IMG/VR virus record: IMGVR_UViG_3300021068_000245
Span: 1 to 26,095 of that record
Source of the DNA: a virus
DNA: 26,095 bases
Reading direction: 5' to 3' (one strand)
The position numbers and the translations under genes were made by a program. This document shows, piece by piece, positions 2,435 to 25,343 of this stretch (its first letter is position 1; each line of letters starts with the position of its first letter). The notes below the pieces were generated by a model. The model was not told the origin of the DNA. It ran no database searches and was given only the letters and a program-made list of their open reading frames with translations.

Positions 2435-2452
2435 ATAATACTTCTCTATAGA

Positions 2453-2460: not shown

Positions 2461-2475
2461 AAGTACCTGCCTATG

Positions 2476-2483: not shown

Positions 2484-2489
2484 TAACAT

Positions 2490-5278: not shown

Positions 5279-5713
5279 ATGACCCAGAGAATAATTGGTT
5301 GCGGAGCACTTTTCTATACTTTAGACACCCAACGTTTTTTATTATTACATAGAACACAAAGTAAACAAAATCACGTATGGGGTTTAGTTGGTGGAACAAC
5401 TACTACTGATTCTAATGCGTGGGAAGGTTTGAAAAGAGAAATTAAAGAAGAAATAGGCGATCAAAAAATTATTAAAACAATTCCTATGGAAACTTTTATC
5501 AGTAATGATGAAAATTTCTTATATCACACATATCTCTGTTTAGTTAAAAATGAATTTATACCTAAATTAAATCAAGAACATGATGGTTATTCTTGGGTAA
5601 CTTTTGGTAGATGGCCTAAACCTTTGCACCAAGGATTAAGAAAAACACTACAAAATAAAACTAATCAAACAAAATTAGAAACAGTTTTTAAAATGATTAA
5701 ATTTATAACATGA
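5279..5713 (+). CDS. Nudix hydrolase
   Basis: A 144-residue Nudix-fold protein. Residues 34-61 contain WGLVGG and a Nudix box with the catalytic REIKEEIG block (53-60) intact. The box is imperfect: the glutamate expected at residue 45 (eight before the REUxEE arginine) is serine, and the last hydrophobic position is Asp61. The metal-binding glutamates of the REIKEE block are present, so activity is plausible. Nudix enzymes cleave nucleoside diphosphates linked to another moiety; here a nucleotide-sugar, damaged nucleotide or capped RNA is possible and the sequence does not decide. It is the first gene of the heptose run; its TGA overlaps the HldE start as ATGA. No clear Shine-Dalgarno precedes the ATG. 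Confidence 0.82.
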   Translation: MTQRIIGCGALFYTLDTQRFLLLHRTQSKQNHVWGLVGGTTTTDSNAWEGLKREIKEEIGDQKIIKTIPMETFISNDENFLYHTYLCLVKNEFIPKLNQEHDGYSWVTFGRWPKPLHQGLRKTLQNKTNQTKLETVFKMIKFIT

Positions 5714-6951
5714 TTAAAATAATAGGCGATATTATGCTAGATGTATGGATAGAAGGTCAAGCTAACAGAGTTTCACCTGAAGGTCCTGTATTAGTTTTAA
5801 AAGAACATAATAAAAGATATAGTATAGGTGGTGCTGGAAATGTTGCAGTTAATATTGCAAATTTAAAAGTACCTTGCGAATTATATGGTGCAGTAGGGCA
5901 AGATGAAGCAGGTAAAAAATTAATAAAATTATTTTTGAATAAAGATATACATCCTAAATTAAATTATAACCATTCTATTACAACTACTAAAACAAGAATA
6001 ATAGGTCAAGGTGGTAAACACGTTTTAAGATTAGATAAAGAAGAAAACTATTCTAATGAAATTACCGTTGATTGTAATGAAAATGATATAGTAATTGTTA
6101 GTGATTATAGTAAAGGTGTTATTAAAAAAGATACAATATCTAAATTATTAGAAAAAACAAAATATGTAATAATAGATCCAAAACAAAGTGCAGATACCTA
6201 TGATGGTGCCTATATTGTTAAACCTAATATGAAAGAATACAAAGAATGGAATGGTGTATTTTCAATTAGTGATGCTCTTAAATTTATGCGAGATCATCAA
6301 TGGACATGGTTAATAGTTACAGATGGTAGTAATGGTGCTCATGTATTATCTACTACAGGTGAATATCAATTATTAAAAGAAAAAGCAAAAGATGTTGCTG
6401 ATGTTACAGGCGCAGGAGATACATTTTTAAGTGTATTAGCTTATGGTATATCCAAAGATATTAATATATTTGAATGTTGTAAATTGGCGTGTATGGCATC
6501 AGCTAGAAATGTAGAACAACGTGGTGTTGTTCCTGTTACTTTAAATGATTTACAAAAAGGAGTTATTTTTACTAATGGAGTATTTGATATTTTACATATA
6601 GGTCATTTAGAGTTATTAAAATATGCAAAAAGTTTAGGTAAAAAATTAATTGTTGGAATTAATAGTGATGCTAGTGTTAAAAAAATAAAAGGTCCTGATA
6701 GACCTATTAATGATGTTGATAAAAGAATTAAACAATTAATGATGTTACCGTGGGTAGATGAAGTTAAAGTTTTTGAAGAAGATAATCCACACAATCTTAT
6801 GCAAGAAATTATGCCAGATATTATAGTAAAAGGTGGTGATTGGACTGTAGAAACAGTAATAGGAAATGAACTTGCAGAAGTTAAAATTTTTTCAAGAATA
6901 GAAGGACATTCTACAAGTGATATAATAGAGAAAATTAAAAATGAAAGATAA
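5710..6951 (+). CDS. hldE: Bifunctional heptose-7-phosphate kinase / heptose-1-phosphate adenylyltransferase HldE
   Basis: A 413-residue two-domain enzyme. Residues 1 to about 280 form a PfkB/ribokinase-like kinase: GDIMLD (6-11), RVSPEGPVLV (20-29), GGAGNVAVNIA (40-50), SDYSKG (131-136) and the catalytic DVTGAGDTF (231-239). Residues 285-413 form a nucleotidyltransferase: FTNGVFDILHIGH with the HxGH-type motif at 296-299, NSDASVKKIKG (318-328), KGGDW near 374 and STSDIIEKI near the end. All match cellular HldE as I recall it. The enzyme makes heptose-1,7-bisphosphate and then ADP-heptose in the cytoplasm. It is shorter than the E. coli protein (477 residues), through trimmed loops and linker, with both catalytic sets retained. 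It overlaps the Nudix gene by 4 bases and the oxygenase gene by 11. Confidence 0.93.
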   Translation: MIKIIGDIMLDVWIEGQANRVSPEGPVLVLKEHNKRYSIGGAGNVAVNIANLKVPCELYGAVGQDEAGKKLIKLFLNKDIHPKLNYNHSITTTKTRIIGQGGKHVLRLDKEENYSNEITVDCNENDIVIVSDYSKGVIKKDTISKLLEKTKYVIIDPKQSADTYDGAYIVKPNMKEYKEWNGVFSISDALKFMRDHQWTWLIVTDGSNGAHVLSTTGEYQLLKEKAKDVADVTGAGDTFLSVLAYGISKDINIFECCKLACMASARNVEQRGVVPVTLNDLQKGVIFTNGVFDILHIGHLELLKYAKSLGKKLIVGINSDASVKKIKGPDRPINDVDKRIKQLMMLPWVDEVKVFEEDNPHNLMQEIMPDIIVKGGDWTVETVIGNELAEVKIFSRIEGHSTSDIIEKIKNER

Positions 6952-7540
6952 AATTATAACTGTTAATGATGTATTAAGTACTGAAGATTTTGAAAAATTA
7001 AGAAATAGAATAATGGATAAAAGTTTTCCTTGGTATTACTATGATTATGTTGTAGGTGAGGCCACTGCAAAACCAGGTACATCAGAATATCAACAACAAT
7101 TTGTACATCAATTTCAAGAATTTAGTAAAATTGTTACACAAGGAGAAAATTGGGAAATTTTAATGCCAATTTTTGCAGTTTTAGATCCAATAAACTTTGT
7201 TAGAATTAAAGCTAATCTTGTTCCAAAAGCCGATAAAGTAGTTGTTCACGGATACCATGTAGATACTATTCATCCTTGCTCACTTACAGCAATATTTTAT
7301 GTTAATACTAATAATGGATATACTGAATTTAAAAATGGTGTACAAATACCTAGTGTTGCAAATTCAATGGTTATTTTTCCTAGCTATCTAAATCATTCAG
7401 GTTCTACTTGTACAGATGAAAAAGTTAGAATAGCAATTAATATTAATTTTGTACCAATTCCAGATAGCAAATATTCTTATTTGTCTATACCAGAAGAAAT
7501 ATGTAAATTAACTAGAGATTGGCAAACAGACGGATACTAA
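6941..7540 (+). CDS. 2-oxoglutarate/Fe(II)-dependent oxygenase
   Basis: A 199-residue protein with the iron-binding facial triad of the double-stranded beta-helix dioxygenases: His106-x-Asp108 (GYHVDT) and distal His152 (LNHSG). Arg163 (KVRIAININF) is in the position that binds 2-oxoglutarate. The intervening strand TAIFYVNTNNGYTEF and the FPSYLNHSG turn are typical of the prolyl-4-hydroxylase-like group common in marine T4-like phages. Substrate is unknown: candidates are an amino acid side chain of a virion protein, a sugar or a nucleotide. It sits between hldE and hldD with an 11-base overlap upstream and a one-base overlap (TAATG) with hldD downstream, so it is probably co-translated with the heptose enzymes. 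Confidence 0.87.
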   Translation: MKDKIITVNDVLSTEDFEKLRNRIMDKSFPWYYYDYVVGEATAKPGTSEYQQQFVHQFQEFSKIVTQGENWEILMPIFAVLDPINFVRIKANLVPKADKVVVHGYHVDTIHPCSLTAIFYVNTNNGYTEFKNGVQIPSVANSMVIFPSYLNHSGSTCTDEKVRIAININFVPIPDSKYSYLSIPEEICKLTRDWQTDGY

Positions 7541-8361
7541 TGAATATTTTAATAACAGGATATAAAGGATTTATAGGACGTAATTTGTTTGCACATTTAC
7601 AAACCAAAGGACATACTGTAGAAGGTTATGATTATATAGAAAATTCTTTTCCAGATCCATCAAAATATGATTGGATAATTCATTTAGGAGCAATTTCTAC
7701 AACTACTGAAACCGATGTAAACAAAATAATGAAACAAAATTATGATTTCAGTATGAGATTATTACAATTATGTGATAGTATGGGAACAAATTTTCAATAT
7801 GCCAGCTCTGCTAGTGTATATGGAACTACAGGTAATTTTAATGAAGAAGGTCCTGTGTACCCAATGAATGCTTATGCATGGAGCAAATATTTCTTTGATC
7901 GTTTTATAGAATCTGTAGATAAAGATGGATTTCAAATTCTTGTACAAGGATTTAGATATTTTAATGTGTATGGTCATCATGAAGAAGATAAAAAAGATCA
8001 AGCATCTCCTATAACTAAATTTACAAAACAAGCTAAAGAAAATAAATCAATTAAAATTTTTGAAAATAGTGAAAATTATCTTAGAGATTTTGTTTGTGTT
8101 AGTGATGTATGTAAAGTACATCAACAAATGTTAGAGCAAGATATTAGTGGTATTTTTAATGTAGGTACTGGTAAATCTACTAGTTTTTTAAGAGTAGCTA
8201 AAATTATTGCTGAAAAATACAATGCCAAGTTAGAAACAATACCTATGCCATTAAATTTAAGCAAACAATATCAAACTTATACTTGCGCCGATTTAACAAA
8301 ATTAAATAAACATATAAACATTAATTGGAAAACAATTAAGGAATTTATTGATGATCAATAA
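7540..8361 (+). CDS. hldD: ADP-L-glycero-D-manno-heptose 6-epimerase HldD
   Basis: A 273-residue extended SDR-family epimerase. The NAD(P)-binding GYKGFIG loop is at residues 7-13, the catalytic serine region is YASSASVYG (87-95), and the Tyr112-x3-Lys116 pair is in NAYAWSKYFFD. GFRYFNVYG (about 137-145), ENYLRDFVCVSDV and IFNVGTGKSTSF also match E. coli HldD closely as I recall it, more specifically than generic sugar epimerases. It converts ADP-D-glycero-D-manno-heptose to ADP-L-glycero-D-manno-heptose. The start is the ATG at 7540, overlapping the oxygenase stop as TAATG; an upstream in-frame TTG at 7519 is unlikely. The 3' end overlaps the cupin gene by 11 bases. It acts directly after HldE in the pathway. 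Confidence 0.92.
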   Translation: MNILITGYKGFIGRNLFAHLQTKGHTVEGYDYIENSFPDPSKYDWIIHLGAISTTTETDVNKIMKQNYDFSMRLLQLCDSMGTNFQYASSASVYGTTGNFNEEGPVYPMNAYAWSKYFFDRFIESVDKDGFQILVQGFRYFNVYGHHEEDKKDQASPITKFTKQAKENKSIKIFENSENYLRDFVCVSDVCKVHQQMLEQDISGIFNVGTGKSTSFLRVAKIIAEKYNAKLETIPMPLNLSKQYQTYTCADLTKLNKHININWKTIKEFIDDQ

Positions 8362-8740
8362 ACTAGGTAAAAGAGAAATGGGTTGGGGCTATGAATTAAT
8401 ATGGGCTTCTAGCGACAAATACTGTGGAAAAATTATGGTGTTTACTAAAAAAGGTGCAAAATTTAGTATGCATTTTCATAAAGATAAAGATGAAACATGG
8501 TTTTGCAATAGTGGAACATTTAAATTACATTGGATTGATACTAAAGATGCAACTTTATATACTAAAGATTTTAAAGAAGGAGAAACTTGGTATAATCCAC
8601 CATTAATGCCTCACCAATTAGAATTAGTATCTGATCATGGTAGCGTATCCGAAGTTAGCACACCTGATCATTCCGAAGATAATTATAGAGTTATAAAAGG
8701 CGATAGCCAATCAAAAAAAGACAATCCTGAAAAGAAATAA
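8351..8740 (+). CDS. Single-domain cupin protein
   Basis: A 129-residue small cupin. Motif 1 fits the consensus exactly: Gly35-x5-His41-x-His43-x4-Glu48-x6-Gly55 (HFHKDKDETWF). Motif 2 is Gly77-x5-Pro83 followed by His88 (NPPLMPHQLELV), so the metal-binding HHEH set is present. Stand-alone cupins of this shape resemble the C-terminal domain of type II mannose-6-phosphate isomerases and often lie with sugar nucleotide genes; an isomerase, epimerase or lyase role in the same sugar route is inference. The start is taken at ATG 8351 rather than the TTG at 8348. It overlaps hldD by 11 bases and ends exactly where the giant virion protein gene on the other strand ends (no spacer at 8740/8741). Confidence 0.8.
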   Translation: MINKLGKREMGWGYELIWASSDKYCGKIMVFTKKGAKFSMHFHKDKDETWFCNSGTFKLHWIDTKDATLYTKDFKEGETWYNPPLMPHQLELVSDHGSVSEVSTPDHSEDNYRVIKGDSQSKKDNPEKK

Positions 8741-11700
8741 TTACGCTTGAGCTTCTGACCAACGCAGTGTAACTGTACCGTTAACTGCTCCAGTTCCACC
8801 TGTTCTATATACGTTAATTGCTAACACATCTGGACCATTAGGAAATGTTCCTCTTCCACCTAATGTAGTATTAGTCAATTCCTTGATCGGAGCAAGAGAT
8901 AATGTTGCTCTTTCACCTGGTTGTGCAACGAATGAAAAGATCATTTCACCTGGTTGTGCATATGGTGGATTACCAAATAAGAACGTTACACTTGCACCTG
9001 CGGCAATAGCCGCTGTTGATGTTTGTGAAAACGTTACTTTATAATAAGTTGTACCAGTAGCAACTGGACCATATCTTCCTAATGGGGCTACACTAATAAC
9101 AGATGTACCAGATGGAAAATTAGTGTCTTGTAATTCTGTACCTTGTGTGGCATTTGAAGCTTCCCATGAAGTTGGATCCATGTACAAGTAGTTTGTATTA
9201 GTTAATGTACCTCCCATAGAAAACGTAATTGCTGTTCCCATCGGAATACCACCGTGATTATTACTGTAGTATGCTAGATAGTAATAAGAATATTCATAAA
9301 GCTCTGTAATAATTGTGCCTGCTGGGAAACTACCACCACTTACTGAATCTCCTACTTTAATATCTCTGCCATCAAAACCATTGTTGTTTCCTGGACCATC
9401 TTCTTTTAACCAGTATGAATAATTGTTATACCAACTACCCATATTCCACCAGTTGTTTGTAACTTGAGTTGAAATTGCCGCCGATGTGTCTGCTGTTGCA
9501 GTAACCTGAGTAGCTCCACCGTTCCAGTTAACCGAACCACCTGCCGCTATTTGAGCAAACGATGGTTGACCACCTTGTGCAGTTCCTGACAGTCCCGTCC
9601 AACCTATATCACTTGGATCTAATGGATAGTTTTGAGGATTAAGCACTCCTTGTAAGACCAGTGAACCTGGGTTACTAGCCATAGGTTCTGTTGTAATTTC
9701 TATACCTTCAAGTAGCAACTGGGCTCTGTTAAGCAAGTCTCTATCTCCAAGGTCTCCTGTTAAAGCGTTAGCAACTGATGGTGCTAATCTTATTAGGAAC
9801 ACAGTTTTTTTCGTAGTTTCTAATTCTGTATTCGTTGCCGCATAACTAAACAAATATCCACGTTCTTCATCAAAGTCACCATCTGTTATGTAAGATGATC
9901 CCCAGTGAGATATAATTGGACTTGCCGTGTTACTAATTAATACAACTCCAGTATTTCTATAGTGTTCAGCCGCCGGACCTGCTGTATATGATCTAGTGGC
10001 TCCTGAAGAAAAGTTAGTTAATTGAGTTGCTCTAGTAACACCTGTTAATTTATTACCAGTAACAGTTGTGTATGTTATAATTTCATTATCTATATAAAGC
10101 GTTCCGCCATTTGGTGGAAAGAAAGAAGCATCTACTAATCTTATTGTTGTATCTCCAGCATTTATATTATCTGAAAGTTTACCATTTGGACCTTCATTAG
10201 TAACTTCATAACGCACAGGTTGGTTACCTGTTCTCATATATGCTTCTGTATTAATGTTAGAATTTCTCATTCTGTGACAGAAAATAAAGTTACCATCACC
10301 ACCTCTTGTCATGTAATCGATAAATCCTGCTCCGTACCAGGACATTTGTAGACCTATCATCTGCATCTTAGATACATTTAAATCATATCCACTAGGTCCA
10401 GTTCCATTGACAGGGTCTAAATTCCAATTTTCTTGTTTAACTTTTTTATCAAATACTAAACAACTTTTAACACCAGCGGCTGGATTAACTCCTCTATAGT
10501 CTGGAGTAACATTCATTGTTAAATTATCTGCAACATTAGATACAACGTGAGTCATACCTCTTATTACTATTCTATCACCTGCTTTTAATTGTTCTCTAAA
10601 TCTTGTTCCTAGTCCTGTAATTGTATTAGAATCAGGATTTACTGAAATTGTTCCTGCTAATTGTCTTGTAGCTGTTCTTTGACAAAGATTTAAGTTTACA
10701 CCATCATATTCCCAGAAAATTCCATTTTGATCATCAAATATACCTGATCTTACAGTTGCACCATTCCAATATTTTAATGATACTTGTGGTTGATCTTTAA
10801 ATTCTGGAGTTAACATACTTAAAGAACTATTAGCAGTAACTTTAAATGTTCTTTCATTTACAATTTGAATTACTATATAATCATCATTAAATTCTTGTTG
10901 TGCTATTCCAATTAATGTTATAGTTGCACCAACTTGTAATCCGTGGTCAACTTCATCTGTAGTAACAGATATTACAGATCCAACTGTTTTACCATCTGCT
11001 ACAACATTTAAAATATCATAAGATGGAGCAAACAAGGCACCTGTTGTATACATGATACCTTTACCTGATTGATATCTAATATATTTTTTAGATTGTCTTA
11101 TTGCCTGTGCACCGTGTTGTGGTCCACCTGTTCCTAATTGTACTCCTCCATCAAATGGTCTATGTACAAAGAATGAATCTGGTCTAACATATACGAATCC
11201 AGACCAGTTAAGATCTGTAATTTGTCCTGGTGATCTAGCTTGAAATCTTAATTGATTAGTTGCTGGAAGTTCTGTAACAAGGAATGGTCCTGATGCTAAT
11301 AAGTGATTATTACTTCCATCATCAGATCCAATAGTTACTAAGAAACCATCTCCTGGAACTAAACCATGTGGAGTTAAAAATTGTACTTGTATAGTTGCTA
11401 TTGCACTATAAGTTATTGTAGATGATGCTGGTAAAACTTGCGTAGTTACATCTGATAAAGTAAGAGATGAATAAACTGTTACACCTGTTCCTGTTACTGC
11501 ACTACCTGAGTGAGTACATTGTGATATACCACCTGATGAATTTATAGCTTGAACAGTAACATTACAATCATGTGCAGGAGTTCCTCCGCCTAATGCTGTT
11601 CCACTAACAACAATTTGATCTCCTACATTATAACCTGTTCCTAAACTAGAAACTGTTGCTTCTGTATATGTAGTTGATGAATCGTCTGTGTATGATCTAG

Positions 11701-14700: not shown

Positions 14701-16453
14701 TAGTAATTAATAAAATATCTTCATGATTAATTTGTCCACCTGGATTAACAACTTTTAAACTAGATACTTCATTTTTTTCTAATGCTGGTAAATTATCTAA
14801 ACCATTTGCTTTTACATCAGAAATAATATTTGACAATGTTACTATTCTATTTGTCGCGTTTGATTCAGAATTATTTCCATCTGTAAATTGAGTAGTAACA
14901 ACTGGATTTTGTTTTGATTGTGTTACTGCACCTGTAGTAGCACTTATAAAAGTATGTGCTGATGTATTAGTTGATGTTCCTACGTTTACAGTAATTGATG
15001 TTGCACTTACTGATGTAATTTTAACTGGTTCATTATAGGCATAGTCAGCCCCACCTGGTGCATTTGATCCAGACGCTCTAGGATATGTATGGTTAGTCGC
15101 ATGACTATCCATTGCACAAGTAAATGTTAAACTGTTTGTATTAATTCTAATATATTCATTAACCAACATAGGATGAGATCCAATAGTTAATACCATTACT
15201 CCAGTTGTCGGAGTGTATACTACATTTGTTGGTGTGAAAGTTACAGATTTATTTGGTAAAACGTAATTAATTAATAAATCTCTAACCCAATCTGTTGCGG
15301 CAACTTCTGGTTGTCTATCTCCATCTATTTGAGGAGTTGTTCCTACCCAGAATTTAGAAGCAATAAATCTTGTTTGTTTGTTACCATTGTAACGTAAATC
15401 ATTAAGATATGCATCAAGAATAAAATCATAATCTCTATCGCACTTATCTGAATTATAAGTAAAATTTTCAAATACATAAGAACTACTTGTAAGAGCAGGT
15501 AATTGAACAATTCCATTGTCAACTGTTTCAATTAATTGTCCTAATTTTGTATCAAAGTCAGTAACACCGGCACTTTCAGCATTTGTTCCTGTTAAATCTT
15601 GTACTGTTCCACTTTGTACACTACCAGAAGTAGCACTTACAAAAGTATGTGCTGTTGTATTACTTGATACTCCTACGTTTATAGTAATTGATACTGAATC
15701 TTTAGCTGTAACTTTAACTGGTTTATTATAAAAAAAATCAGCACCACCGGGTGCGGCTGAACCAGATGCTCTTGGATAACTGTGATTTGTTGCATTGTTG
15801 TCCATTGCACACGTAAAAGTTAAACCAAGTGTACTAATTCTAACAGATTGTCCAACTGTTAAAGTGTGAGCACCAATAGTTAAAATCATATCACCAGTTG
15901 TTGGCGTATATGTTGCTCCTGTAGGAGTGTAAGATGTACTAGTTTGTAAAGTACCAAATGCACCTCCAGGTAAAATAGAATCTTTTATAAGTGTTCGCAT
16001 ATAACCCCAATATGCGATTTCAGGATCTCCACTGTTAGCTAATTGGAGTACACCATCTATAAAATATGTACCTGATTGAAGTCTTAAATTTTCATTTCCA
16101 CCATATCTAACGTCACGTGCAATAGCTTCTACTACTGCTTCTACATCTGTTTCTACAGTGTCTTCAGTTTTAGTATAACCGGCAAATGGAGCAATGTTAC
16201 CTGCAACTTGTGCCGCCACCCAGGCCCATACTTCATCTTTAATAAAAGTTTTATTGTTTGTAATTCTGTTAGATATATTAGGATATAAATCAGCGGCTGT
16301 ATCTTGAGATGTTTTCTCAGCGATATAACCCATCATTTCATCTTTAATCCACTCTTTATTTTTATCGATAAGATTATGAGCTACAGGATAATTATTCCCG
16401 TTTTTAGGAATTCCTGTTTGAAATATATAATTGTTTAATTTCTTTTTAGCCAT
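8741..16453 (-). CDS. Giant repetitive virion structural protein (2570 residues)
   Basis: An unbroken 2570-codon gene. The N-terminal region (about 100-525) holds two copies of a segment with RYGGN/RYNGN, a beta-rich stretch, then FTCAMD..ATNH.YPRASGS.APGGAD, a module I associate with giant virion proteins of T4-like marine phages. Residues about 950-1660 hold eight tandem beta-rich modules with signature ITILGT.LGG.SPANDC. The region around residue 2028-2090 (MSWYGAGFIDYM, NSNINTEAYMRTGNQPVRYE) is a strongly conserved block of marine T4-like giant structural proteins. The C-terminus is Gly/Thr/Asn-rich. No enzymatic motif is visible. Role: distal tail, baseplate or long fibre component, inferred from composition and family. 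TATAAAAA (16458-16465), one base from the late consensus, precedes the ATG. Its last codons abut the convergent cupin gene. Confidence 0.85.
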   Translation of the reverse strand: MAKKKLNNYIFQTGIPKNGNNYPVAHNLIDKNKEWIKDEMMGYIAEKTSQDTAADLYPNISNRITNNKTFIKDEVWAWVAAQVAGNIAPFAGYTKTEDTVETDVEAVVEAIARDVRYGGNENLRLQSGTYFIDGVLQLANSGDPEIAYWGYMRTLIKDSILPGGAFGTLQTSTSYTPTGATYTPTTGDMILTIGAHTLTVGQSVRISTLGLTFTCAMDNNATNHSYPRASGSAAPGGADFFYNKPVKVTAKDSVSITINVGVSSNTTAHTFVSATSGSVQSGTVQDLTGTNAESAGVTDFDTKLGQLIETVDNGIVQLPALTSSSYVFENFTYNSDKCDRDYDFILDAYLNDLRYNGNKQTRFIASKFWVGTTPQIDGDRQPEVAATDWVRDLLINYVLPNKSVTFTPTNVVYTPTTGVMVLTIGSHPMLVNEYIRINTNSLTFTCAMDSHATNHTYPRASGSNAPGGADYAYNEPVKITSVSATSITVNVGTSTNTSAHTFISATTGAVTQSKQNPVVTTQFTDGNNSESNATNRIVTLSNIISDVKANGLDNLPALEKNEVSSLKVVNPGGQINHEDILLITNTTRNTVLYNFADASLGCTVEYEKETDDDFKAFLHGSDTVTTIFLNADTSSHTVDDAVSIFVEGGELRTRPFDFGTDAIERFRIAKPQSMIDADFEYGLQPTKWQAIGTQRGYPSIYEVPGTDIDIASVTTDASTGTAGIGASLITVTTVGPHAMLSGDPLTIIGFAGSGVEGAGRAQGSFVVNSVTSNKIFTYYAKAKVGTANGQTISTKFTQMRKGAFYTGADLGEPSFSVVSQGSSGAVATSLKVLAGQSIVPFTGATPPTGAPVTGTGIATGTQITAITGTGGALVSPKIKGDYASGVTQVEVVDPAGILQNSVLDRGDGFGTNIINVNGAVLTLSSPLQSSLVGDQTVYSNVAGLNRSPNGTSATWQISWTGGAYTVVQGITGTNYQLGDAITILGTALGASSPANDVTINIDSVDTGGEILTFSYSGTAFDGTGSASDITGSVPGGVGTGGEFNITKTNTSYAVALASQTFTLLNPQYAGGGGTGSIWDITFTNGVYNTVTMSNGGSGFIVNDTIRIAGTEFGGQGDLNELLIRVTGVSSGVITSHSSAGTAPDATVIYTNPAFTTSGSGTLATFSVTRTGTAYTAIITAPGTNYGVSDTITIDGGNLGGASTTNDCTLTVATIDGSGGITSVTPTGLAVNTKTIAGITSGNNYVGSNAQFSVTNPVGGSYTSITATNVGQHYTLGQELTILGTQLGGLSPTHDLTITLATALGANDAIVQGNWTISGNATDGPGTLNYVANDILKINGTALGGANITNDAYVRVSSVDAEGSITGVAVTGTGTDGDVTYTEVPEWDGSTIPGWTTSLAGTGATFTIQRIGTAYTATVVATGSGFVGTEAITILGTHLGGATPANDASFTIDTVNAGAVATISAVTGTAANTQLYTNAPTEKRVGQGEAFDISITGGNYTVDQISQAGTNFWVGQIVVIPGTSLFGSSPANDCSIEITSVDAVSTGGITGTTVTGSANTGTGAAGTMLIGTNRPQTGIGAVFYITRSYTDDSSTTYTEATVSSLGTGYNVGDQIVVSGTALGGGTPAHDCNVTVQAINSSGGISQCTHSGSAVTGTGVTVYSSLTLSDVTTQVLPASSTITYSAIATIQVQFLTPHGLVPGDGFLVTIGSDDGSNNHLLASGPFLVTELPATNQLRFQARSPGQITDLNWSGFVYVRPDSFFVHRPFDGGVQLGTGGPQHGAQAIRQSKKYIRYQSGKGIMYTTGALFAPSYDILNVVADGKTVGSVISVTTDEVDHGLQVGATITLIGIAQQEFNDDYIVIQIVNERTFKVTANSSLSMLTPEFKDQPQVSLKYWNGATVRSGIFDDQNGIFWEYDGVNLNLCQRTATRQLAGTISVNPDSNTITGLGTRFREQLKAGDRIVIRGMTHVVSNVADNLTMNVTPDYRGVNPAAGVKSCLVFDKKVKQENWNLDPVNGTGPSGYDLNVSKMQMIGLQMSWYGAGFIDYMTRGGDGNFIFCHRMRNSNINTEAYMRTGNQPVRYEVTNEGPNGKLSDNINAGDTTIRLVDASFFPPNGGTLYIDNEIITYTTVTGNKLTGVTRATQLTNFSSGATRSYTAGPAAEHYRNTGVVLISNTASPIISHWGSSYITDGDFDEERGYLFSYAATNTELETTKKTVFLIRLAPSVANALTGDLGDRDLLNRAQLLLEGIEITTEPMASNPGSLVLQGVLNPQNYPLDPSDIGWTGLSGTAQGGQPSFAQIAAGGSVNWNGGATQVTATADTSAAISTQVTNNWWNMGSWYNNYSYWLKEDGPGNNNGFDGRDIKVGDSVSGGSFPAGTIITELYEYSYYYLAYYSNNHGGIPMGTAITFSMGGTLTNTNYLYMDPTSWEASNATQGTELQDTNFPSGTSVISVAPLGRYGPVATGTTYYKVTFSQTSTAAIAAGASVTFLFGNPPYAQPGEMIFSFVAQPGERATLSLAPIKELTNTTLGGRGTFPNGPDVLAINVYRTGGTGAVNGTVTLRWSEAQA
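11480..13620 (-). repeat. Eight tandem coding repeats in the giant virion protein
   Basis: Eight copies of a degenerate module recur with anchors (signature LGG.SPAND and variants) near 13480, 13110, 12853, 12590, 12421, 12133, 11876 and 11580. Spacing is mostly about 257-300 bases (86-100 residues), with one short interval of about 170 and one long one of about 370. Each module contains a GTxYT strand, a GTxYxVGDxITI strand, the LGG..P.ND turn and a TIxxVD...GxIT strand. Copies have diverged at the DNA level, so the array is old or under diversifying selection. Confidence 0.8.
14930..16150 (-). repeat. Two-copy internal duplication at the N-terminus of the giant protein
   Basis: Two related segments of roughly 190-200 residues each (about 16150-15590 and 15450-14930). 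Both pass through a DLRY.GN or DVRYGGN motif, a YTPTTG strand, the FTCAMD...ATNH.YPRASGS.APGGAD block (near 15800 and 15110) and a SITVNVG strand ending AHTF.SAT.G. Boundaries are approximate because they were set by eye from the translated protein. Confidence 0.7.
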
Positions 16454-16460
16454 TTAATTT

Positions 16461-18317
16461 TTATACCCCTAACGCAATAGAATATGCCATACTAGTTGCG
16501 TCTACATAAGTTTTATTGGTCAAGTGTTTACCTGTTGTAGGCGTACTTTCGCCCGTTGCGGATAAAAATCCAGCATTGGCAGGTGTCGTTGTACCAATTG
16601 TAGTACTATTTAACGTTCCTGACGTCGAAATGAGAGTAGTAAAAGCTCCTGCTTTAGGAACAGATTGTCCAACGGACACATTATTTAAAGATCCTGTTGC
16701 TGAAGGGTTTACTGTTAGTGTACCACTTAATTGTGGGCTTATAGTTACATCTGAATTAGGTGTTATAGATACTTCACCAGATGTTGTTAAATTTGTTGCA
16801 TTAATATTTACATTGTTTATAGTACCACCACCAGCTGGATTAATATTTACTGTACCAGTACCTGTAGGACTAATTGTTATAATTGCATCTGCACCTGAAC
16901 TTATTAAATTTCCTGTATTAAGAATAGAACTAAATGATCCAATTCCTGTTACTGTAGGATTAGTTATATTAATTGCCGCACTAGGAACTCTATCTGCATC
17001 ACCATAAAATAGTTTATCTGGAGCATCAATTGGTACTACAAAACTTAAAAGTCCTTTAGATTTTGCTAAAGCATCTTCTCCAGTTACAGTAGAAGCTGTT
17101 GGAATATCTACATATGAAGAAGGAGTAGCTGTCTCATTTACTCTTGTTTGAACGCTTGTTAATACACTTCCTTCCCAAGTTTGTGCTACATTAGAATAAG
17201 CATATAGCGACACATTACCTGAATTATAAGAATATAAATTAGAACCATCTAATTGAAGTACACCAGATAATAATTTATTTTCTATAGTACTATTTGCTTT
17301 TGCCCAGCCATATATTGTAGATGCCGCTGTTAAAATAGTTTGACCAGCTACAACTCCACCATTAAATGGATATGCTAAATCTTCTTCACCATGAAACATT
17401 ATAACTTTTGCTTTAGATAAAGGCGTTACTGGTGCCCAAGAAACTGCTGTTGAATCTCCTAAATTAGCTAAAGCCATTTTGTAAAAAATACCTGTATTTT
17501 CTCTGTATTGGTCTTCATTGAATAATGCTGATTCAATGATTACATTTTTAATATTTGTTTTTGTTGTTTGTAAAGCGTATTGGTGTGCCATTTGTCCACC
17601 AAGTCCTTTACCATGAATTGAAATTTCTCTTAAATCTACATTGTCATAATCCGCTAACTTATCTATTATTGCATCAAGGTATGCTATATCATCTGCTTTA
17701 GTAGTAGTATATCCTGTATTCCATTCTTTACTGTAACCCTGAGGAGCAATTATAATTTTATCTGTTAGATAATTTAAATTTGTAATAGCATTTCCAGCCG
17801 ATTGATTTGCATTGTGTAAAGTTATAATTACTGGAATTTGTTTGCCTTGTAATGGTGTTCCGGTAGTATTAGGAACAACAACAGTTACAGGTCTACTATA
17901 AGATGAAGATTCTTGTTGCCAAGTTTGTGCAACTGTCCATGTATCAGTTGCAAGGTTTTGTCCATTGATACTTGTAGTATGCGATAACCCAGTACTATAA
18001 GAAACTCCAGCAACTGCATTATTATTTGTATCTGGTGAAAAAATATTCCATGTAATAGATGTAGTATTAAGGTCAAAAACATAAGTTGTACCTCTTTTTA
18101 AATCAAGAGCTGGGTTTGATCCTAAATTATTACTATCTTTATCTACAATAGAAAAATTATTGGTTTGTTCTGTAACTGTATAATCTATGGAATCAGATGC
18201 AGTCGGAGTATATGTATTAGTAATTGTTCTAACAGATACATTACCAAGATTATCAACCGTAAATCCTGGGCTTTTAAATCCGTAGTTTGCTTCAAACTGT
18301 TTATAATTTACTGCCAT
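16461..18317 (-). CDS. Tail fibre protein with embedded inactive esterase-like domain
   Basis: A 618-residue protein. Residues about 140-390 align with the LpqC/poly-hydroxybutyrate-depolymerase-like esterase fold: PVIITLHNANQSA, KIIIAPQGYSKEWNTG, DIAYLDAIIDKLADY, then ISIHGKGLGGQMAHQYA at the nucleophile elbow and VIMFHGEEDLAYPFNGG. The nucleophile of GxSxG is Gly238 (codon 17604-17606), the acid Asp313 is present, and the expected histidine is Gln379 (17181-17183, in NVAQTWEGS). The C-terminus (about 440-618) is a repetitive Thr/Ser/Asn/Gly beta-structure ending in GKHLTNKTYVDATS, typical of phage fibre proteins. The N-terminus (MAVNYKQFEANYGFKSPGF) resembles marine phage fibre starts. A late promoter box lies 15 bases upstream. 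It is adjacent to the giant virion gene, 7 bases apart. Glycan binding without hydrolysis is inferred. Confidence 0.78.
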   Translation of the reverse strand: MAVNYKQFEANYGFKSPGFTVDNLGNVSVRTITNTYTPTASDSIDYTVTEQTNNFSIVDKDSNNLGSNPALDLKRGTTYVFDLNTTSITWNIFSPDTNNNAVAGVSYSTGLSHTTSINGQNLATDTWTVAQTWQQESSSYSRPVTVVVPNTTGTPLQGKQIPVIITLHNANQSAGNAITNLNYLTDKIIIAPQGYSKEWNTGYTTTKADDIAYLDAIIDKLADYDNVDLREISIHGKGLGGQMAHQYALQTTKTNIKNVIIESALFNEDQYRENTGIFYKMALANLGDSTAVSWAPVTPLSKAKVIMFHGEEDLAYPFNGGVVAGQTILTAASTIYGWAKANSTIENKLLSGVLQLDGSNLYSYNSGNVSLYAYSNVAQTWEGSVLTSVQTRVNETATPSSYVDIPTASTVTGEDALAKSKGLLSFVVPIDAPDKLFYGDADRVPSAAINITNPTVTGIGSFSSILNTGNLISSGADAIITISPTGTGTVNINPAGGGTINNVNINATNLTTSGEVSITPNSDVTISPQLSGTLTVNPSATGSLNNVSVGQSVPKAGAFTTLISTSGTLNSTTIGTTTPANAGFLSATGESTPTTGKHLTNKTYVDATSMAYSIALGV

Positions 18318-18332
18318 TTTATCTATACTCTA

Positions 18333-18340
18333 TATTTATC
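18333..18340 (-). promoter_or_regulatory. Late promoter box (GATAAATA) for the fibre gene
   Basis: The minus strand reads GATAAATA with its downstream edge 15 bases before the fibre ATG, the same variant seen before the gp13-like and 217-residue genes. It may drive both the fibre gene and the giant virion gene downstream. Confidence 0.6.
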
Positions 18341-18356
18341 AAAATTTAATTTCATA

Positions 18357-18779
18357 TTATACACCACCTAATAAAGCATTCATTGTTTGAAAATATGTTG
18401 CCTTAAAGATAGCTTTTGAACCGTTATATTTTGTTGTTGCTGTTTTATTTTCTGGATCTAGTTTTAATTCTACAAAAGAATCAGTAACTGTACTAGTTAA
18501 TTTTACTAAATTATTTCCCAAATTTGATCTACCGTAAATTGTAACAGAACTATTTAATGGAGCACCTACTACTAATGCTCTAATAATTTCTTTATTATTA
18601 GTATCATAGTCTATAGATATTGTATATTCTGCAGAACAAAAAGTTGCAAGGTGAAATCTGTCTAAAACTAATCCTTCTTCTACAGTGGCAGATGGGCCAT
18701 TGTATGAAAAATTTAATCCATTTTTCATTAATAGCGTATTTTTATCGCCTTTTCCAAAGAGTTTTGATACATCAAACAT
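18357..18779 (-). CDS. Small probable virion protein (140 residues)
   Basis: The protein starts MFDVSKLFGKGDKNTLLMKN and contains a beta-rich middle (CSAEYTISIDYDTNNKEIIRALVV) and an ATYFQTMNALLGGV end. I do not recognise a named family, but small proteins with an AEYTISIDY-like strand occur next to fibre genes in marine T4-like phages, so a fibre- or baseplate-associated protein is the best guess. A clear Shine-Dalgarno (GAAGGA) lies about 9 bases upstream of the ATG. A GGTAAATA box (18802-18809), a weak match to the late promoter, precedes it. No signal peptide or membrane segment. Confidence 0.65.
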   Translation of the reverse strand: MFDVSKLFGKGDKNTLLMKNGLNFSYNGPSATVEEGLVLDRFHLATFCSAEYTISIDYDTNNKEIIRALVVGAPLNSSVTIYGRSNLGNNLVKLTSTVTDSFVELKLDPENKTATTKYNGSKAIFKATYFQTMNALLGGV

Positions 18780-18845
18780 ATAAAGATTCCTTCTTTAAGT
18801 GTATTTACCAATTTTATTAGGATAGAGTTTCTGTAGATATTGGGC

Positions 18846-19793
18846 TTATTGGGTATTTTTACCGTGTTTTATCATTCTATTGACTGATGCAATAACTTGT
18901 TGCTCTTGTTGGTCATCCATCTCCATAATACCCTCATTTATACGGTCTGAGAACTCATCTACGGTAACTCTTATAGGACTATAAACACGATCTTCTTTAC
19001 CTAAATCAATAATATTGAATTTTTCATTGTTTGGGAATGATACATTAATAGGAAATGTAGATCCTATTACTGATGTTGTAGTTGTGTCGAAAACATAAGC
19101 CATATGTTGCCCTACACTATCACAACCTAAAAAGTGATCACATTGTTTAATTACACCCATCCATATTCTTATATGTACATTTTGTGGCGTAGCCACTGGT
19201 GCTGACATATGCTTATTAAATTCTAATGGTGTTTCAGTCATAATCATTACAGCATATTTTTTAGATAACTTTCTTACTATATTATAAAGATTTTTAGTTT
19301 CCATACTTCTACCTGTAATGTCAACTATGTCTTTATCTTCTTTTCTAACACCTCTTCCAAAGGGTTGAATAACAATTAATTTGTCTTTTTTGCATTTTTC
19401 TTTTACTTCTGATAACATTTTTCGAGCATATAATAATTCATCTTTGCTTAATTTTATTGTAGGTTTTTTTAATTCTCTTATACCTTTATTATTAATTGCA
19501 ATATCATATGCTTGAGCAAGACTACACTTTTGAGTGTAGTATTCCCATACTCTATATGGCTCAGGATTAATACAATTTCTATCTTTTATTAATTCTTTAA
19601 AAAGTCCTTTATGCCAATTGTCATATGTTTTATAATATAATGTTGGATGACCTTTTAAAACATCCGTACCGCCTTCACAAATTATTACAAAATCATCATT
19701 GGGATTTTCTTTTGCAAAATTTTCTAATGCAGGTATAGAACTAATCATTCTTCCTGCTCCACCATTTAAAAAGATAGCACTATTTCTTGACAT
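18846..19793 (-). CDS. GT9 (heptosyltransferase-like) glycosyltransferase, copy B
   Basis: A 315-residue protein with the layout of ADP-heptose:glycan heptosyltransferases (GT9, GT-B fold). The N-terminal FLNGGAGRMISSIPALENF (8-26) matches the GxGD-type acceptor loop, with Arg at the Asp position. VIQPFGRG (141-148) and ITGRSMETKNL open the donor domain. DHFLGCDSVGQHMAYVF (219-235) corresponds to the GT9 donor-site D-S-G-x-x-H motif, here D-S-V-G-Q-H. It is a clear paralogue of the protein encoded at 21584-22561. Its start overlaps the carbamoyltransferase gene by 14 bases and has an AGGTGA ribosome-binding site. Donor is probably ADP-heptose given hldE/hldD nearby, an inference; acceptor unknown. 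Confidence is high for a GT9-like fold, moderate for heptose specificity. Confidence 0.75.
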   Translation of the reverse strand: MSRNSAIFLNGGAGRMISSIPALENFAKENPNDDFVIICEGGTDVLKGHPTLYYKTYDNWHKGLFKELIKDRNCINPEPYRVWEYYTQKCSLAQAYDIAINNKGIRELKKPTIKLSKDELLYARKMLSEVKEKCKKDKLIVIQPFGRGVRKEDKDIVDITGRSMETKNLYNIVRKLSKKYAVMIMTETPLEFNKHMSAPVATPQNVHIRIWMGVIKQCDHFLGCDSVGQHMAYVFDTTTTSVIGSTFPINVSFPNNEKFNIIDLGKEDRVYSPIRVTVDEFSDRINEGIMEMDDQQEQQVIASVNRMIKHGKNTQ

Positions 19794-21591
19794 TTTTCAC
19801 CTTTAACATTTTTCCATATTCTGGAAGATACAAATATTCTAAAAGAGATTCTTCAAGAGTCCATATAGCGTCTTCTAATGTTTCTACAAGTGGTTCTCCA
19901 GCCAAATTAAATGACGTATTAAACACAATTGGTATTTTTGTTTGATTATAAAACTCTTTAATTAATTTATAATACAATGGATTTTGTTCTTCTTTAACTG
20001 TTTGTATTCTACAAGTACCATCTACGTGTATAATACTAGGAATTTTTTCTGCTATTCCTTCTTGACAATTTACAGCATACATCATATAAGGACTTTCTTC
20101 CATTCCTCTTAAATCAAACCATTCGTGTACGTGTTCATGTAATATAGATCCTGCAAAAGGTCTAAAATATTCTCTACGTTTAACTATATTAACAAAATCT
20201 TTACCATCTTTAAATGTAGGATCAAATAAAATACTTCTGTTACCTAATGCCCTTGGACCACTTTCTGATTTTCCTTGAAACATAGAAATAATATTTTTTT
20301 CTATCATTAATTTAACTACATCTTTATCATTTGCGTCCATTAATTCAATGCCTGATTTATTTGCTAATTTTTCTATTTCTTCTAATGTATATTTTCTTTC
20401 TAGACCTTGACATAATGTAGTAAGTGGTCTTTTTGTCATATCTTCTGTTATACCATAATAAAATAAAAGAGCCGCTCCAATGGCTGTTCCGGCGTCATTT
20501 GATACTGGTTCAACAAATAAATTAATTCCATCTTTTCTTAAAGACTCAAGATACCAATAATTTGCTACACAATTTAATCCATATCCACCAGATAATACAA
20601 CATTTTTTTGACCTGTCATTTCTACAGCTTTATAAATTAATTTTAAAACTTCTGCTTGAGTTTCTGTTTGACAAGAATATGCTAAATCTCTTCTATTATC
20701 TAGTTTAGTAACATCAGGACAATCTGCAGGTGTATCATCTAAGTAATCATAAATGCCTTCATTTACTATTGCCGCATTAGGATATGTAGGAATTATTAAA
20801 TGTCTATTAGACAAAGACATATATTTTACTTCATCATGAAATAATGGAGGAATTCTATCATTAGCTTTTCCATAAGGAAATAATCCCATTGTTTTTCCTG
20901 CTTCAATGGCAGAGAATCCACAGTATTGAGTAATTGCTTCATAAACTTTAACAATTCCTGCTACATCTGAAAATAAACATTCATGAGTTTTACCTGGTTC
21001 TCCCATTTTATCTGAAGGATGTTTTTTTATAAATGCTCCTGGAGATGCAGAACCAGTACCGTAATGTTTCCATACAGTTGTTATATTATTAGGATATGAG
21101 CAATCAAAAATAGATTCAATTTCAAACATCCATAAATCTCCTGTAAGTTGATTATTAACAGGCATAAAAGTTCCTGCTCCATCAACAATAACTGAACAGG
21201 CTTTATCAAATCCTGATCTATAAAAAGCACAACCGGCGTGTAACTTATGATGGATATGACTTAGGTCAATTACTTGTGGGTGTTGTTGTAAATCTGCTTT
21301 TCTATCTATTAAACCTAATTTTCTTGCTAACCCTGTGTATACATCATCATGAGTATAATCAACTTTACCAGTAGTAGGATCATCTAATGGTTGTGTATGA
21401 GCTACAACTAGATAATCTATTTTGTCCGTATATTTTAATATTTCCATCATTGAACGATATGGACCACCATCGTATTTGTGTCTAGATAATCTTTCTTCTT
21501 CTATTGCAAAAACAATTTCTCCATCTTTTAATAGACATATACCTGCATTATGTCCTCTGGCTATTGCCGCAATATAACCTGATTTACTCAT
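19780..21591 (-). CDS. O-carbamoyltransferase, NodU/CmcH/TobZ family
   Basis: A 603-residue protein with the two-domain architecture of the family. The N-terminal TsaD/Kae1-like domain has GHNAGICLL (from residue 13), EEERLSRHK, the metal-binding SHIHHKLH segment (about 111-118), VDGAG, and LSGGYGLNCVAN near 333. The C-terminal signature SGPRALGNRSIL is at about 444-455, and FNTSFNLAGEP at 557-567. The family uses carbamoyl phosphate and ATP to form carbamoyl-adenylate and then carbamoylate a sugar hydroxyl, as in nodulation factors and antibiotics. I start it at the ATG complement 21589-21591, preceded by GAGGAAG, rather than the upstream TTG at 21609. It overlaps the upstream GT9-like gene by 8 bases (ATGAGTAA). 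It is flanked on both sides by GT9 paralogues, implying a carbamoylated glycan product. Confidence 0.92.
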   Translation of the reverse strand: MSKSGYIAAIARGHNAGICLLKDGEIVFAIEEERLSRHKYDGGPYRSMMEILKYTDKIDYLVVAHTQPLDDPTTGKVDYTHDDVYTGLARKLGLIDRKADLQQHPQVIDLSHIHHKLHAGCAFYRSGFDKACSVIVDGAGTFMPVNNQLTGDLWMFEIESIFDCSYPNNITTVWKHYGTGSASPGAFIKKHPSDKMGEPGKTHECLFSDVAGIVKVYEAITQYCGFSAIEAGKTMGLFPYGKANDRIPPLFHDEVKYMSLSNRHLIIPTYPNAAIVNEGIYDYLDDTPADCPDVTKLDNRRDLAYSCQTETQAEVLKLIYKAVEMTGQKNVVLSGGYGLNCVANYWYLESLRKDGINLFVEPVSNDAGTAIGAALLFYYGITEDMTKRPLTTLCQGLERKYTLEEIEKLANKSGIELMDANDKDVVKLMIEKNIISMFQGKSESGPRALGNRSILFDPTFKDGKDFVNIVKRREYFRPFAGSILHEHVHEWFDLRGMEESPYMMYAVNCQEGIAEKIPSIIHVDGTCRIQTVKEEQNPLYYKLIKEFYNQTKIPIVFNTSFNLAGEPLVETLEDAIWTLEESLLEYLYLPEYGKMLKVKNVKK

Positions 21592-22561
21592 CTTTATCTT
21601 CCTCGTCAATTTTTTGTTTTCCTAATACAACATTTATAATATAATTTTCTACTTCATCTGTCATCCACATTAATTTTTCATTATGTCTACTAACTTGTTC
21701 ATCGTTTGTTATTCTTATTGGATCATATTCTCTATCTATTTGTCCCATATCTATAATATTAATTCCTTTTGTTTTAGGATATGATGTATTAACTGGGAAC
21801 GTTGCACCAGTTACTACTGTTGCATCTGTTTCACCTATATAGGCTAAATGTTGACCTACACTATCACAACCTAAAAAATGATCACTATTTTTTATAATTG
21901 CTAACCATTTTCTTAAGTCAATTCCTTCAGGCATTGCTATTTCATCTGGATATTTTTCACCTTTTAAATCAATTCCAAATTCTGCCATTAATATAATTGC
22001 ATAATCTTCTGCTTGTAATTTTCTTATTAAGTTTTTTATATTTTTAAATTCCATACTTCGACAAGTTTTATCTACAAAACTATTGTCTATTTGTTGAATC
22101 CCTCGTCCAAATGGTTGTAAAACAATTACTTTTTCTTTTTTAAGTTTATCTTTAATATCTTTAACTGCTTTTTTTCCTGCAAGTAATTCTTCTTGACTTA
22201 AATTAATTGTAGGTTTAGGTAATTCTCTAACACCTTTATTATTAATTAAAATATCAAACGCTTGAGTTATATTACATTTTTGATTATAATATTCCCATAT
22301 TCTATATGGTTCTAAACTTACCACATCCATTTTTACAAGTTTAGTGTGGAATAAATTTTTATGACCATAGTCAAATGTTTTAGAATCTAATGTAGGATGA
22401 CCATCTAAAATATTTTGAATACCTTCTACTACTATTATAAAATCTTTGTCGATAGATTCTTCATAGTATTTTTCAAGGGCCGGAATAGCACAGATAATTC
22501 TACCCATTCCCCCATTTAAAAAAAATGCTTTTGGTCTTGTTATAGGATTATTTTCAGTCAT
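21584..22561 (-). CDS. GT9 (heptosyltransferase-like) glycosyltransferase, copy A
   Basis: A 325-residue paralogue of the gene at 18846-19793. Shared blocks are FLNGGMGRIICAIPALE (14-30), EPYRIWEYYNQKC (84-96), ILINNKGVRELPKPTI (104-119), VLQPFGRG (147-154) and DHFLGCDSVGQHLAY (227-241), the last being the GT9 donor-site motif. Identity to the other copy looks high (my estimate by eye is 40-50 percent). It is the first gene of the glycosyltransferase-carbamoyltransferase cassette. No Shine-Dalgarno is visible; instead a 15-base-pair hairpin ends two bases before the ATG. It has a Lys/Glu/Asp-rich C-terminal tail. Likely role: transfer of heptose (or another nucleotide-activated sugar) to a glycan later carbamoylated; inference from family and context. 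Confidence 0.75.
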   Translation of the reverse strand: MTENNPITRPKAFFLNGGMGRIICAIPALEKYYEESIDKDFIIVVEGIQNILDGHPTLDSKTFDYGHKNLFHTKLVKMDVVSLEPYRIWEYYNQKCNITQAFDILINNKGVRELPKPTINLSQEELLAGKKAVKDIKDKLKKEKVIVLQPFGRGIQQIDNSFVDKTCRSMEFKNIKNLIRKLQAEDYAIILMAEFGIDLKGEKYPDEIAMPEGIDLRKWLAIIKNSDHFLGCDSVGQHLAYIGETDATVVTGATFPVNTSYPKTKGINIIDMGQIDREYDPIRITNDEQVSRHNEKLMWMTDEVENYIINVVLGKQKIDEEDKDE

Positions 22562-24315: not shown

Positions 24316-24330
24316 AATACTATTTACTCC

Positions 24331-25335: not shown

Positions 25336-25343
25336 AATTTATC

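Follow-up and report, generated by a model that had tools for sequence, protein, structure and literature searches.

A GT9-like and carbamoyltransferase gene set linked to Cys-rich fibre-cluster proteins, and separable from predicted ADP-heptose genes, in a T4-like marine phage

INTRODUCTION

Phage genes assigned to lipopolysaccharide (LPS) synthesis have long been noted, and may be directed at either the host or the virion. O-carbamoyltransferases of the NodU/CmcH/TobZ type, one enzyme class relevant to such clusters, act to our knowledge on small molecules when characterised members are considered. A metagenomic member of this family is described, in the excerpted report, as carbamoylating 5-hydroxymethylcytosine (5hmC) (PMC8670742). 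TibC is a protein O-heptosyltransferase that carries an iron site of four Cys and a candidate catalytic base, Asp-110, whose Ala mutant was among those abolishing or largely diminishing heptosylation (excerpted text of PMC4358343). In three phages, P-SSM2, S-SM2, and S-SSM7, T4-GCs 260, 265, 266, 304, 305, 307, and 308 co-occur and are perhaps functionally linked, according to the excerpted text of Sullivan et al. 2010 (PMC3037559). Here, a virus record of 26,095 nucleotides (IMG/VR IMGVR_UViG_3300021068_000245, positions 1 to 26,095; hereafter the window) was analysed, in which genes for HldE and HldD lie on one side of a 2570-aa fibre gene and, on the other, two genes for GT9-like proteins (GT9a and GT9b) enclose a gene for an O-carbamoyltransferase (CT), all at the positions assigned to them by an earlier note made from the sequence alone.

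T4-GCs 304, 305, 307, and 308 were found to be the adenylyltransferase, kinase, cupin, and HldD genes of this system, and the cassette was, going by the excerpted 2010 text, partly reported as 'LPS genes'; no description combining cyanophage, heptose, and carbamoyltransferase was found in the open-access literature. The window is best explained as the fibre cluster, used in host recognition, of a marine T4-like phage that carries a modification system in two parts. We tentatively propose, with slightly less than even confidence, that the GT9-like pair and CT modify the phage's own fibre-cluster proteins, ADP-heptose serving as donor in phages that have the Hld module (HldE, HldD, and a cupin).

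RESULTS

Two-way association of GT9-CT genes with a Cys/Gly-rich protein family

Gene neighbourhoods were compared in the best 80 of 436 IMG/VR relatives of the GT9-like protein (GT9-centred loci). CT was present in all 80, within 150 nt of a GT9-like open reading frame (ORF) in 68 and at 0.8-1.8 kb in 12; two GT9-like ORFs were found in 33 loci, a large fibre gene in 68, and genes for Cys/Gly-rich proteins in 74. Members of this Cys-rich family (205 in 80 loci) contain 7.2-11.8% Cys (median 9.6%), as compared to a median of 0.9% for comparison ORFs of more than 250 aa (n=490). Where at least 3.5 kb was available upstream of GT9, Cys-rich genes were found in 67 of 69 loci. The two loci without them, L081 and L082, break off within CT, and their GT9 proteins are 77% and 100% identical to those of L083/L085, in which the Cys-rich genes lie beyond CT, on the very side where L081 and L082 end. 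In the reverse direction, GT9 and CT were both found in all 35 of the Cys-rich-gene loci that extend 3.5 kb or more downstream; among the full set of 41 Cys-rich-gene loci, 38 had GT9 and 36 had CT.

The association extends to named phages, with phrog_4205 matched in 4/4 whole phage records carrying the GT9-CT pair versus 0/13 others (four with HldE and eight with CT but no GT9-like gene, plus Aeromonas phage HJ05). This profile was used in place of tblastn with the Cys-rich protein, which returned no match in phages, perhaps owing to low-complexity masking. In the divergent loci L109 and L110, different Cys-rich ORFs occupy the same place. The Cys-rich family is the best candidate for the acceptor of the GT9-CT modification, and the two-way link, being separable from the sugar-making genes, offers a concrete, testable substrate in the cultured phages P-SSM2, S-SSM7, and S-CAM3.

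A Cys content near 10% is unusual in proteins produced in a reducing cytosol, and it is conserved across GT9-CT phages. A carbamoyltransferase gene is also linked to the GT9-like gene in 7/8 phage-contig-like matches from a genome collection. Seven contigs binned as archaeal or bacterial metagenome-assembled genomes (MAGs; L104-L110) have CT with a GT9-like gene in every case, mostly along with fibre-cluster or Cys-rich genes, and are probably virus contigs binned into MAGs.

The same enzymes may be read as acting on the host: phage-made ADP-heptose would alter the LPS or capsule of the infected cell, excluding other phages, and the fibre location would be explained by receptor-related genes being exchanged together. 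The excerpted literature reads the P-SSM2 LPS clusters as host-surface genes (PMC2984593), and likewise the glycosyltransferases and rfaE of the pelagimyophage host recognition cluster (PMC7029224, in excerpt). Consistent with this, genes with glycosyltransferase annotations surround the HldE modules of P-TIM68 and S-T4, and phrog_4205 is absent from both of these phages as well as from S-SM2. The GT9-CT genes, in contrast, are tied to one fibre-cluster protein family and not to other glycan genes. Furthermore, the LPS of marine Synechococcus WH8102, the listed host of the whole-cassette carrier Sf-FS3, is described in the excerpted account as free of heptose and Kdo (PMC4515613), so that a normal heptose core is not an obvious target there; even so, the addition of a new sugar by a phage is conceivable in hosts of this type. 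Host-surface remodelling is judged unlikely, while retaining appreciable weight.

A conserved split architecture with optional Hld genes

Of the 80 contigs, which are fragments of genomes, the 50 longest were searched over their whole length. Raw tallies at E<=0.001 were 36 contigs for HldE and 39 for HldD, falling to 33/50 and 35/50 once weak matches to other proteins were removed by hand (adenylyltransferase matches in G031, G033, and G035, with E ~1e-9 to 1e-11, and weak HldD matches). In 42 contigs the sequence continues for 17.5 kb or more downstream of GT9, and 30 of these carry Hld genes, at 10.6-15.4 kb downstream of GT9 in 28 cases, contiguous with CT in one (L122), and 94 kb away in another; the other 12 have GT9-CT with no Hld genes on the contig. 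The common backbone consists of GT9a-CT-(GT9b)-p140-p618-fibre and, facing it, NUDIX-gp15-gp14; the Hld genes lie where the fibre and NUDIX ends of these two blocks meet (p140 and p618 are labels coined in this analysis). Eleven of the 12 Hld-less contigs were mapped, of which nine keep the backbone (L088, L089, L091-L097) and two are arranged differently (L090, L098). Given this backbone, shared with or without Hld genes, the split layout is a conserved architecture with separable GT9-CT and Hld parts, in which the Hld genes are inserted optionally, separating the fibre gene from NUDIX-gp15. The NUDIX hydrolase was considered as a member of the Hld module and rejected, since its gene stays where the Hld genes are absent.

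Of 50,697 phage records searched by tblastn, 24 had the GT9-like gene; many of the 24 are isolates or duplicates of S-CAM1, S-CAM3, S-SSM7, and P-SSM2. An HldE-type match was present in all of these 24 but one, giving 23, and the record without it is that of Aeromonas phage HJ05 (27% identity). P-SSM2, S-SSM7, S-CAM3, and Sf-FS3 have the same genes in one cassette, in the order Cys-rich genes, GT9-like, CT, adenylyltransferase, kinase, small HAD, and cupin, with HldD on the opposite strand and other genes inserted in some. HldE modules without a GT9-like gene, consisting of HldE with a cupin and HAD protein, were found in P-TIM68, S-T4, Sf-CH5, and S-SM2, with weak HldD matches in S-T4 and Sf-CH5.

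The split over two cassettes that the earlier note had described is borne out as a conserved feature of IMG/VR contigs. The co-occurrence that it proposed to look for across phages is borne out as well: an HldE-type match accompanies the GT9-like gene in nearly all of the phage records that have the latter, and four cyanophages have the genes within a single cassette. On the other hand, over a quarter of the roomy contigs have no Hld genes on the contig, and four phages have HldE without the GT9-like gene. The single five-gene make-transfer-cap route that it envisaged is not upheld, as the Hld and GT9-CT parts are separable.

A GT9 fold with an altered active site

Both GT9-like proteins are members of phrog_8954 ('unknown function'), with E 2.4e-125 and 8.6e-136. 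Searched singly, they matched no Pfam or NCBIfam model at E<=0.001, with just two unrelated weak Pfam matches for one protein at E<=1; a PDB sequence search returned no GT9 and at most two fibre chains (E 0.02-0.05), and the family profile gave no result against PDB sequences. At the family level, PF01075 was matched by 45/52 members at E<=1 (best 6.5e-7), the P-SSM2 protein scoring 16.2 bits, below the cut-off of 22, and a profile comparison with WaaC/WaaF/WaaQ gave a probability of 91 with E 9e-7, the match covering the C-terminal part. For an AlphaFold2 model of one GT9-like protein (P0001; pLDDT 89.1), Foldseek matched the GT9 structure 3tov (E 3.3e-10). Fold matches of the model (VIA) included 3tov (Z 22.8, 3.6 A, 280 residues aligned), WaaF (20.9, 3.6 A, 266), TibC (20.3, 3.4 A, 270), and WaaC (18.8, 4.0 A, 255), with Z from 18.5 to 22.8 for GT9 structures overall. 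Chloroplast NDH-supercomplex subunits follow with Z 18.3-18.4, after which the scores drop to 11.6 or below. Judged by the predicted model, 'GT9-like' is correct as a fold for the phage pair, in agreement with the earlier assignment, and the presence of TibC among the best matches supports the fibre reading.

In a global hhalign profile alignment, Arg21 falls on WaaC Asp13, and Arg168 on the beta-phosphate Lys (WaaC K192, TibC K230); for WaaC, we take D13 to be the catalytic residue and follow the numbering K192, D261, and H266. Arg21 is present in 117/117 homologues (from the 80 IMG/VR loci plus four cyanophages, none dropped), as well as in the distant L109, L110, and Aeromonas phage HJ05, and Arg168 is invariant in the sets of 52 and 117 members. 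A protein from a Bdellovibrionales MAG (L111) shares the GCDSVGQH motif but has Asp at the Arg21 position. Asp233 and His238, aligned with WaaC Asp261 and His266, are invariant in 52 members, as are many charged and aromatic residues, a pattern expected of an active enzyme. The only invariant Cys in these members are C96 and C232, and the four-Cys iron site of TibC is absent. With an invariant Arg in place of the catalytic Asp, the phage family has an altered active site, such that ADP-heptose use cannot be assumed or transferred unchecked from other GT9 enzymes. Structure prediction, which the earlier note had named as a possible refutation should it place these proteins outside the ADP-heptose-binding group, returned the GT9 fold.

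This substitution also bears on the possibility that two independent modules merely share a hypervariable region, with the Hld product used elsewhere and the GT9-like protein either using another donor or serving as a non-catalytic fibre-assembly factor. Such independence would account for GT9-CT genes without Hld genes, for HldE without a GT9-like gene, and for the invariant Arg, and the fold shared with the NDH-supercomplex subunits points the same way. The near-constant HldE-type match in GT9-like phage records and the narrow range of distances between Hld and GT9 genes argue against it, while the many invariant residues argue against a non-catalytic role. We consider independent modules improbable.

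The Hld module and the cupin

HldE has a PfkB domain (E 2.4e-31) followed by CTP_transf_like (3.1e-20), and matches the heptose kinase 4e84 in the PDB (E 3.3e-27). HldE is the best NCBIfam name, yet the protein scores below the curated equivalog cut-off (326 versus 521 bits), as do its single domains (225 versus 345 and 151 versus 181.5). Similarly, TIGR02197 is by far the best family for HldD (E 7e-70), below its cut-off (235.7 versus 274.6 bits). The closest PDB entry is E. coli HldD, 1eq2, with which S90, Y112, K116, and K151 align at S116, Y140, K144, and K178, presumably the active-site residues of the E. coli enzyme. The two domains of HldE act before and after the GmhB step of the ADP-heptose pathway, so that HldE and HldD are not the consecutive enzymes they were earlier taken to be. 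No GmhA or GmhB match was seen among the window proteins scanned. The phrog_274 name 'DNA endonuclease V' for the oxygenase-like gene at 6941-7540 looks wrong.

A small cupin is a near-constant partner of the Hld enzymes. Strong matches to HldD and the cupin are concordant in 48/50 contigs (both in 34, neither in 14), with one contig having HldD without the cupin (at a contig edge) and one the cupin without HldD (Fisher p 2e-10, relatedness ignored). HldE, HldD, and the cupin are all present in the 31/31 complete Hld cassettes mapped from the 50 contigs and in 5/5 cassettes from L002-L005 and L106; a HAD-type gene occurs in 14 of the former and all five of the latter, and is absent from the window type. 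In a search centred on the cupin (best 80 kept of 398 relatives), 80/80 loci had HldD and 79/80 HldE, and all 49 full-length loci had both. Two distant HldE loci, L263 and L264, are without the cupin. The GmhA family (TIGR00441) was matched in 0/50 contigs, these being fragments, with a positive E. coli control. Based on this near-constant partnership and the 0/50 result, the cupin may replace GmhA, and heptose synthesis might then be started by either of two types of enzyme.

The metal residues of the cupin (HxH, Glu, His) are kept. Its profile matched D-lyxose isomerase 2y0o in the PDB (E 3.5e-7), with oxalate decarboxylases better (2.8e-8), and a fold search placed CapF, KdgF, phosphomannose isomerase, and many others in a near-tie (Z 12.4-14.4, 2.0-3.9 A, among the 50 best rows). 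Cellular relatives were found in 15/398 genomes of one phylum (E<=1e-10), plus matches in one MAG, and comprise small stand-alone cupins and domains of ~500-aa proteins that are presumably NeuB-like. PHROG calls the Hld-module cupin (window 8351-8740; L002:17637-17993) 'cysteine dioxygenase'. The cyanophage gene annotated 'phosphoheptose isomerase' (L002:17312-17656, L003:19055-19390) encodes a small HAD-type protein with a DIDGT motif and weak HAD-like matches. Based on that motif and those matches, it is more likely a GmhB-type phosphatase, the label probably being a misannotation. We suggest that PHROG is misleading in labelling these two module genes 'phosphoheptose isomerase' and 'cysteine dioxygenase'.

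The carbamoyltransferase

CT matches PF02543 and PF16861, both above cut-off, and its PDB relatives include TobZ (E 1.2e-43) and GdmN. Membership in the same family as the 5hmC enzyme (PMC8670742, in excerpt) raises the alternative that CT carbamoylates a hydroxymethylated DNA base. In S-RIM44 (noted as ThyX), Sf-FP1, and S-SCSM1, CT adjoins a thymidylate synthase gene, and P-SSM2 has an annotated td gene ~7.6 kb beyond CT. On the other hand, PF00303 (thymidylate synthase/dCMP hydroxymethylase) was matched in 0/50 contigs, in a search of fragments that did not cover ThyX, and the neighbours of CT in the GT9-centred loci are GT9 and fibre-cluster genes. DNA modification is regarded as extremely improbable.

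A CT tree was tried as proof of a separate function and set aside, as the GT9-linked CTs are not cleanly monophyletic (three others inside, support 0.49). In P-RSM4 and S-MS29 (L271, L272), CT lies beside uncharacterised tandem genes and several 2-oxoglutarate (2OG) oxygenases, without a GT9-like gene.

Phage type and organisation of the window

The record contains the beginning of a tail sheath gene together with gp13 (head-tail adaptor Ad2), gp14 (a structural protein named by position), and gp15, which mark it as a T4-like myovirus. Between sheath and gp13 (window 734-1631) lie an HNH-endonuclease-like ORF and a deoxynucleoside monophosphate kinase. For gp13 and the neighbouring structural gene (window 1676-3647), the closest relatives are from jumbo phages (Sinorhizobium Phosso, Agrobacterium Atu_ph07, and the Pseudomonas PA5oct group), mostly phages of Proteobacteria. 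Judged from these similarities, the window phage appears to be a mosaic, with the gp13 region nearest jumbo phages and the fibre cassette nearest cyanophages. A typical cyanophage was considered, an identity weakened by the jumbo-phage-like gp13 region and by the lack of a psbA-type gene in the 50 contigs searched, which are fragments.

Overlapping genes form the series GT9a-CT-GT9b and NUDIX-HldE-oxygenase-HldD-cupin (Table 1). The oxygenase-like, cupin, NUDIX, and Cys-rich (23344-26093) genes had gone unmentioned in the earlier note. In some relatives, p140 forms part of larger proteins. The weak matches of p618 are to Peptidase_S9 (0.0017) and Chlorophyllase (0.0026), and it could be a tail-built enzyme.

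Table 1. Features of the fibre cluster and adjoining genes in the window
Feature	Positions	Strand	Remarks
NUDIX hydrolase	5279..5713	+	gp15-side backbone, kept with or without Hld genes
HldE, fused heptose-7-phosphate kinase and heptose-1-phosphate adenylyltransferase	5710..6951	+	Pfam, NCBIfam, and PDB matches
2OG-Fe(II) oxygenase-like protein in Hld operon	6941..7540	+	PHROG phrog_274
HldD, ADP-glyceromanno-heptose 6-epimerase	7540..8361	+	ATG at 7540; TIGR02197, PDB match
Small metal-site cupin	8351..8740	+	near-invariant HldE/HldD partner; candidate sugar-phosphate isomerase
Putative fibre protein, 2570 aa	8741..16453	-	between the two modules; called fibre by size and context
p618, fibre-cluster protein, phrog_2576	16461..18317	-	weak alpha/beta-hydrolase matches
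p140, conserved small protein	18357..18779	-	matched in 73/80 GT9-centred loci
GT9-like protein b (GT9b)	18846..19793	-	paralogue of GT9a, 48% identical
NodU/CmcH-type O-carbamoyltransferase (CT), phrog_1601	19780..21591	-	first ATG at 21591; Pfam, PDB
GT9-like protein a (GT9a), phrog_8954	21584..22561	-	GT-B/GT9 fold; Arg21 at catalytic-Asp position
Conserved 217-aa protein upstream of GT9a	22644..23297	-	matched in 74/80 loci
Cys/Gly-rich fibre-cluster protein, 9.6% Cys, phrog_4205	23344..24315	-	
Cys/Gly-rich fibre-cluster protein, 9.0% Cys, phrog_4205	24331..25335	-	
Cys/Gly-rich fibre-cluster protein, 10.4% Cys	25344..26093	-	cut by window end; no PHROG match itself

DISCUSSION

The gene identities, folds, architecture, and co-occurrence described above are established observations; that the product is carbamoylated heptose is an inference. 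In the proposed mechanism, the Hld module (HldE, HldD, and cupin, with a HAD phosphatase in some relatives) would very probably make ADP-heptose, with the cupin, HAD enzymes, or the host supplying the GmhA and GmhB steps. The GT9-like proteins would then transfer a sugar to an adjacent fibre-cluster protein, most likely a Cys/Gly-rich one, and CT would carbamoylate a hydroxyl of the sugar or the protein; to these two steps together we give about even confidence. The donor would be ADP-heptose where the Hld module is present and otherwise a host-made nucleotide sugar, a suggestion for which the balance is similarly level. Such a modification may serve to tune the stability of the fibres, their binding to receptors, or recognition. 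A more specific version, in which a phage-specific GT9 subfamily with an Arg-remade site and a dedicated CT put a carbamoylated sugar (heptose in phages with their own Hld module) on the Cys/Gly-rich family, with a cupin isomerase replacing GmhA, seems doubtful in its entirety.

Several points weigh against modification of fibre-cluster proteins by the GT9-CT enzymes. The counts cover related contigs rather than independent events, and neighbourhood genes co-travel for many reasons. Part of the Cys content of the proposed acceptor is probably structural, as suggested by 18 alignment columns in which 80% or more of 78 non-redundant members have Cys, and which account for about half of all Cys. 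CT occurs also in phages without a GT9-like gene (P-RSM4, S-MS29, HTVC008M, XacN1). To these are added the Arg residues at the catalytic-Asp and phosphate-Lys positions and the Hld-less contigs. Modification of the fibre cluster nevertheless remains the preferred reading, and it supplies a candidate function for phrog_8954.

Compared to the LPS clusters of P-SSM2, S-SM2, and S-SSM7 (T4-GC 302-308), the window has the same genes. In P-SSM2 and S-SSM7, however, these lie in one cluster with HldE split in two, and GC302, the GT9-like gene, is annotated as merely hypothetical, whereas the window has a fused HldE, two GT9-like genes, and a fibre gene that divides the cassette. The host recognition cluster of pelagimyophages and cyanomyophages is likewise a variable fibre region adjacent to a neck gene, and rfaE is among its glycan genes (PMC7029224, in excerpt); that report, as excerpted, reads the enzymes as modifiers of the host O-chain, whereas in the loci compared here there is a fixed unit with Cys-rich fibre-cluster proteins. 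With NodU, CmcH, and TobZ, the phage carbamoyltransferase shares both domains, with strong matches to TobZ and GdmN. Finally, the phage GT9-like family has in common with WaaC, WaaF, and TibC (BAHT) the GT-B/GT9 fold and the Asp and His of the C-terminal motif, but differs from them in having Arg at the positions of the catalytic Asp and the phosphate-binding Lys, and in its linkage to a carbamoyltransferase.

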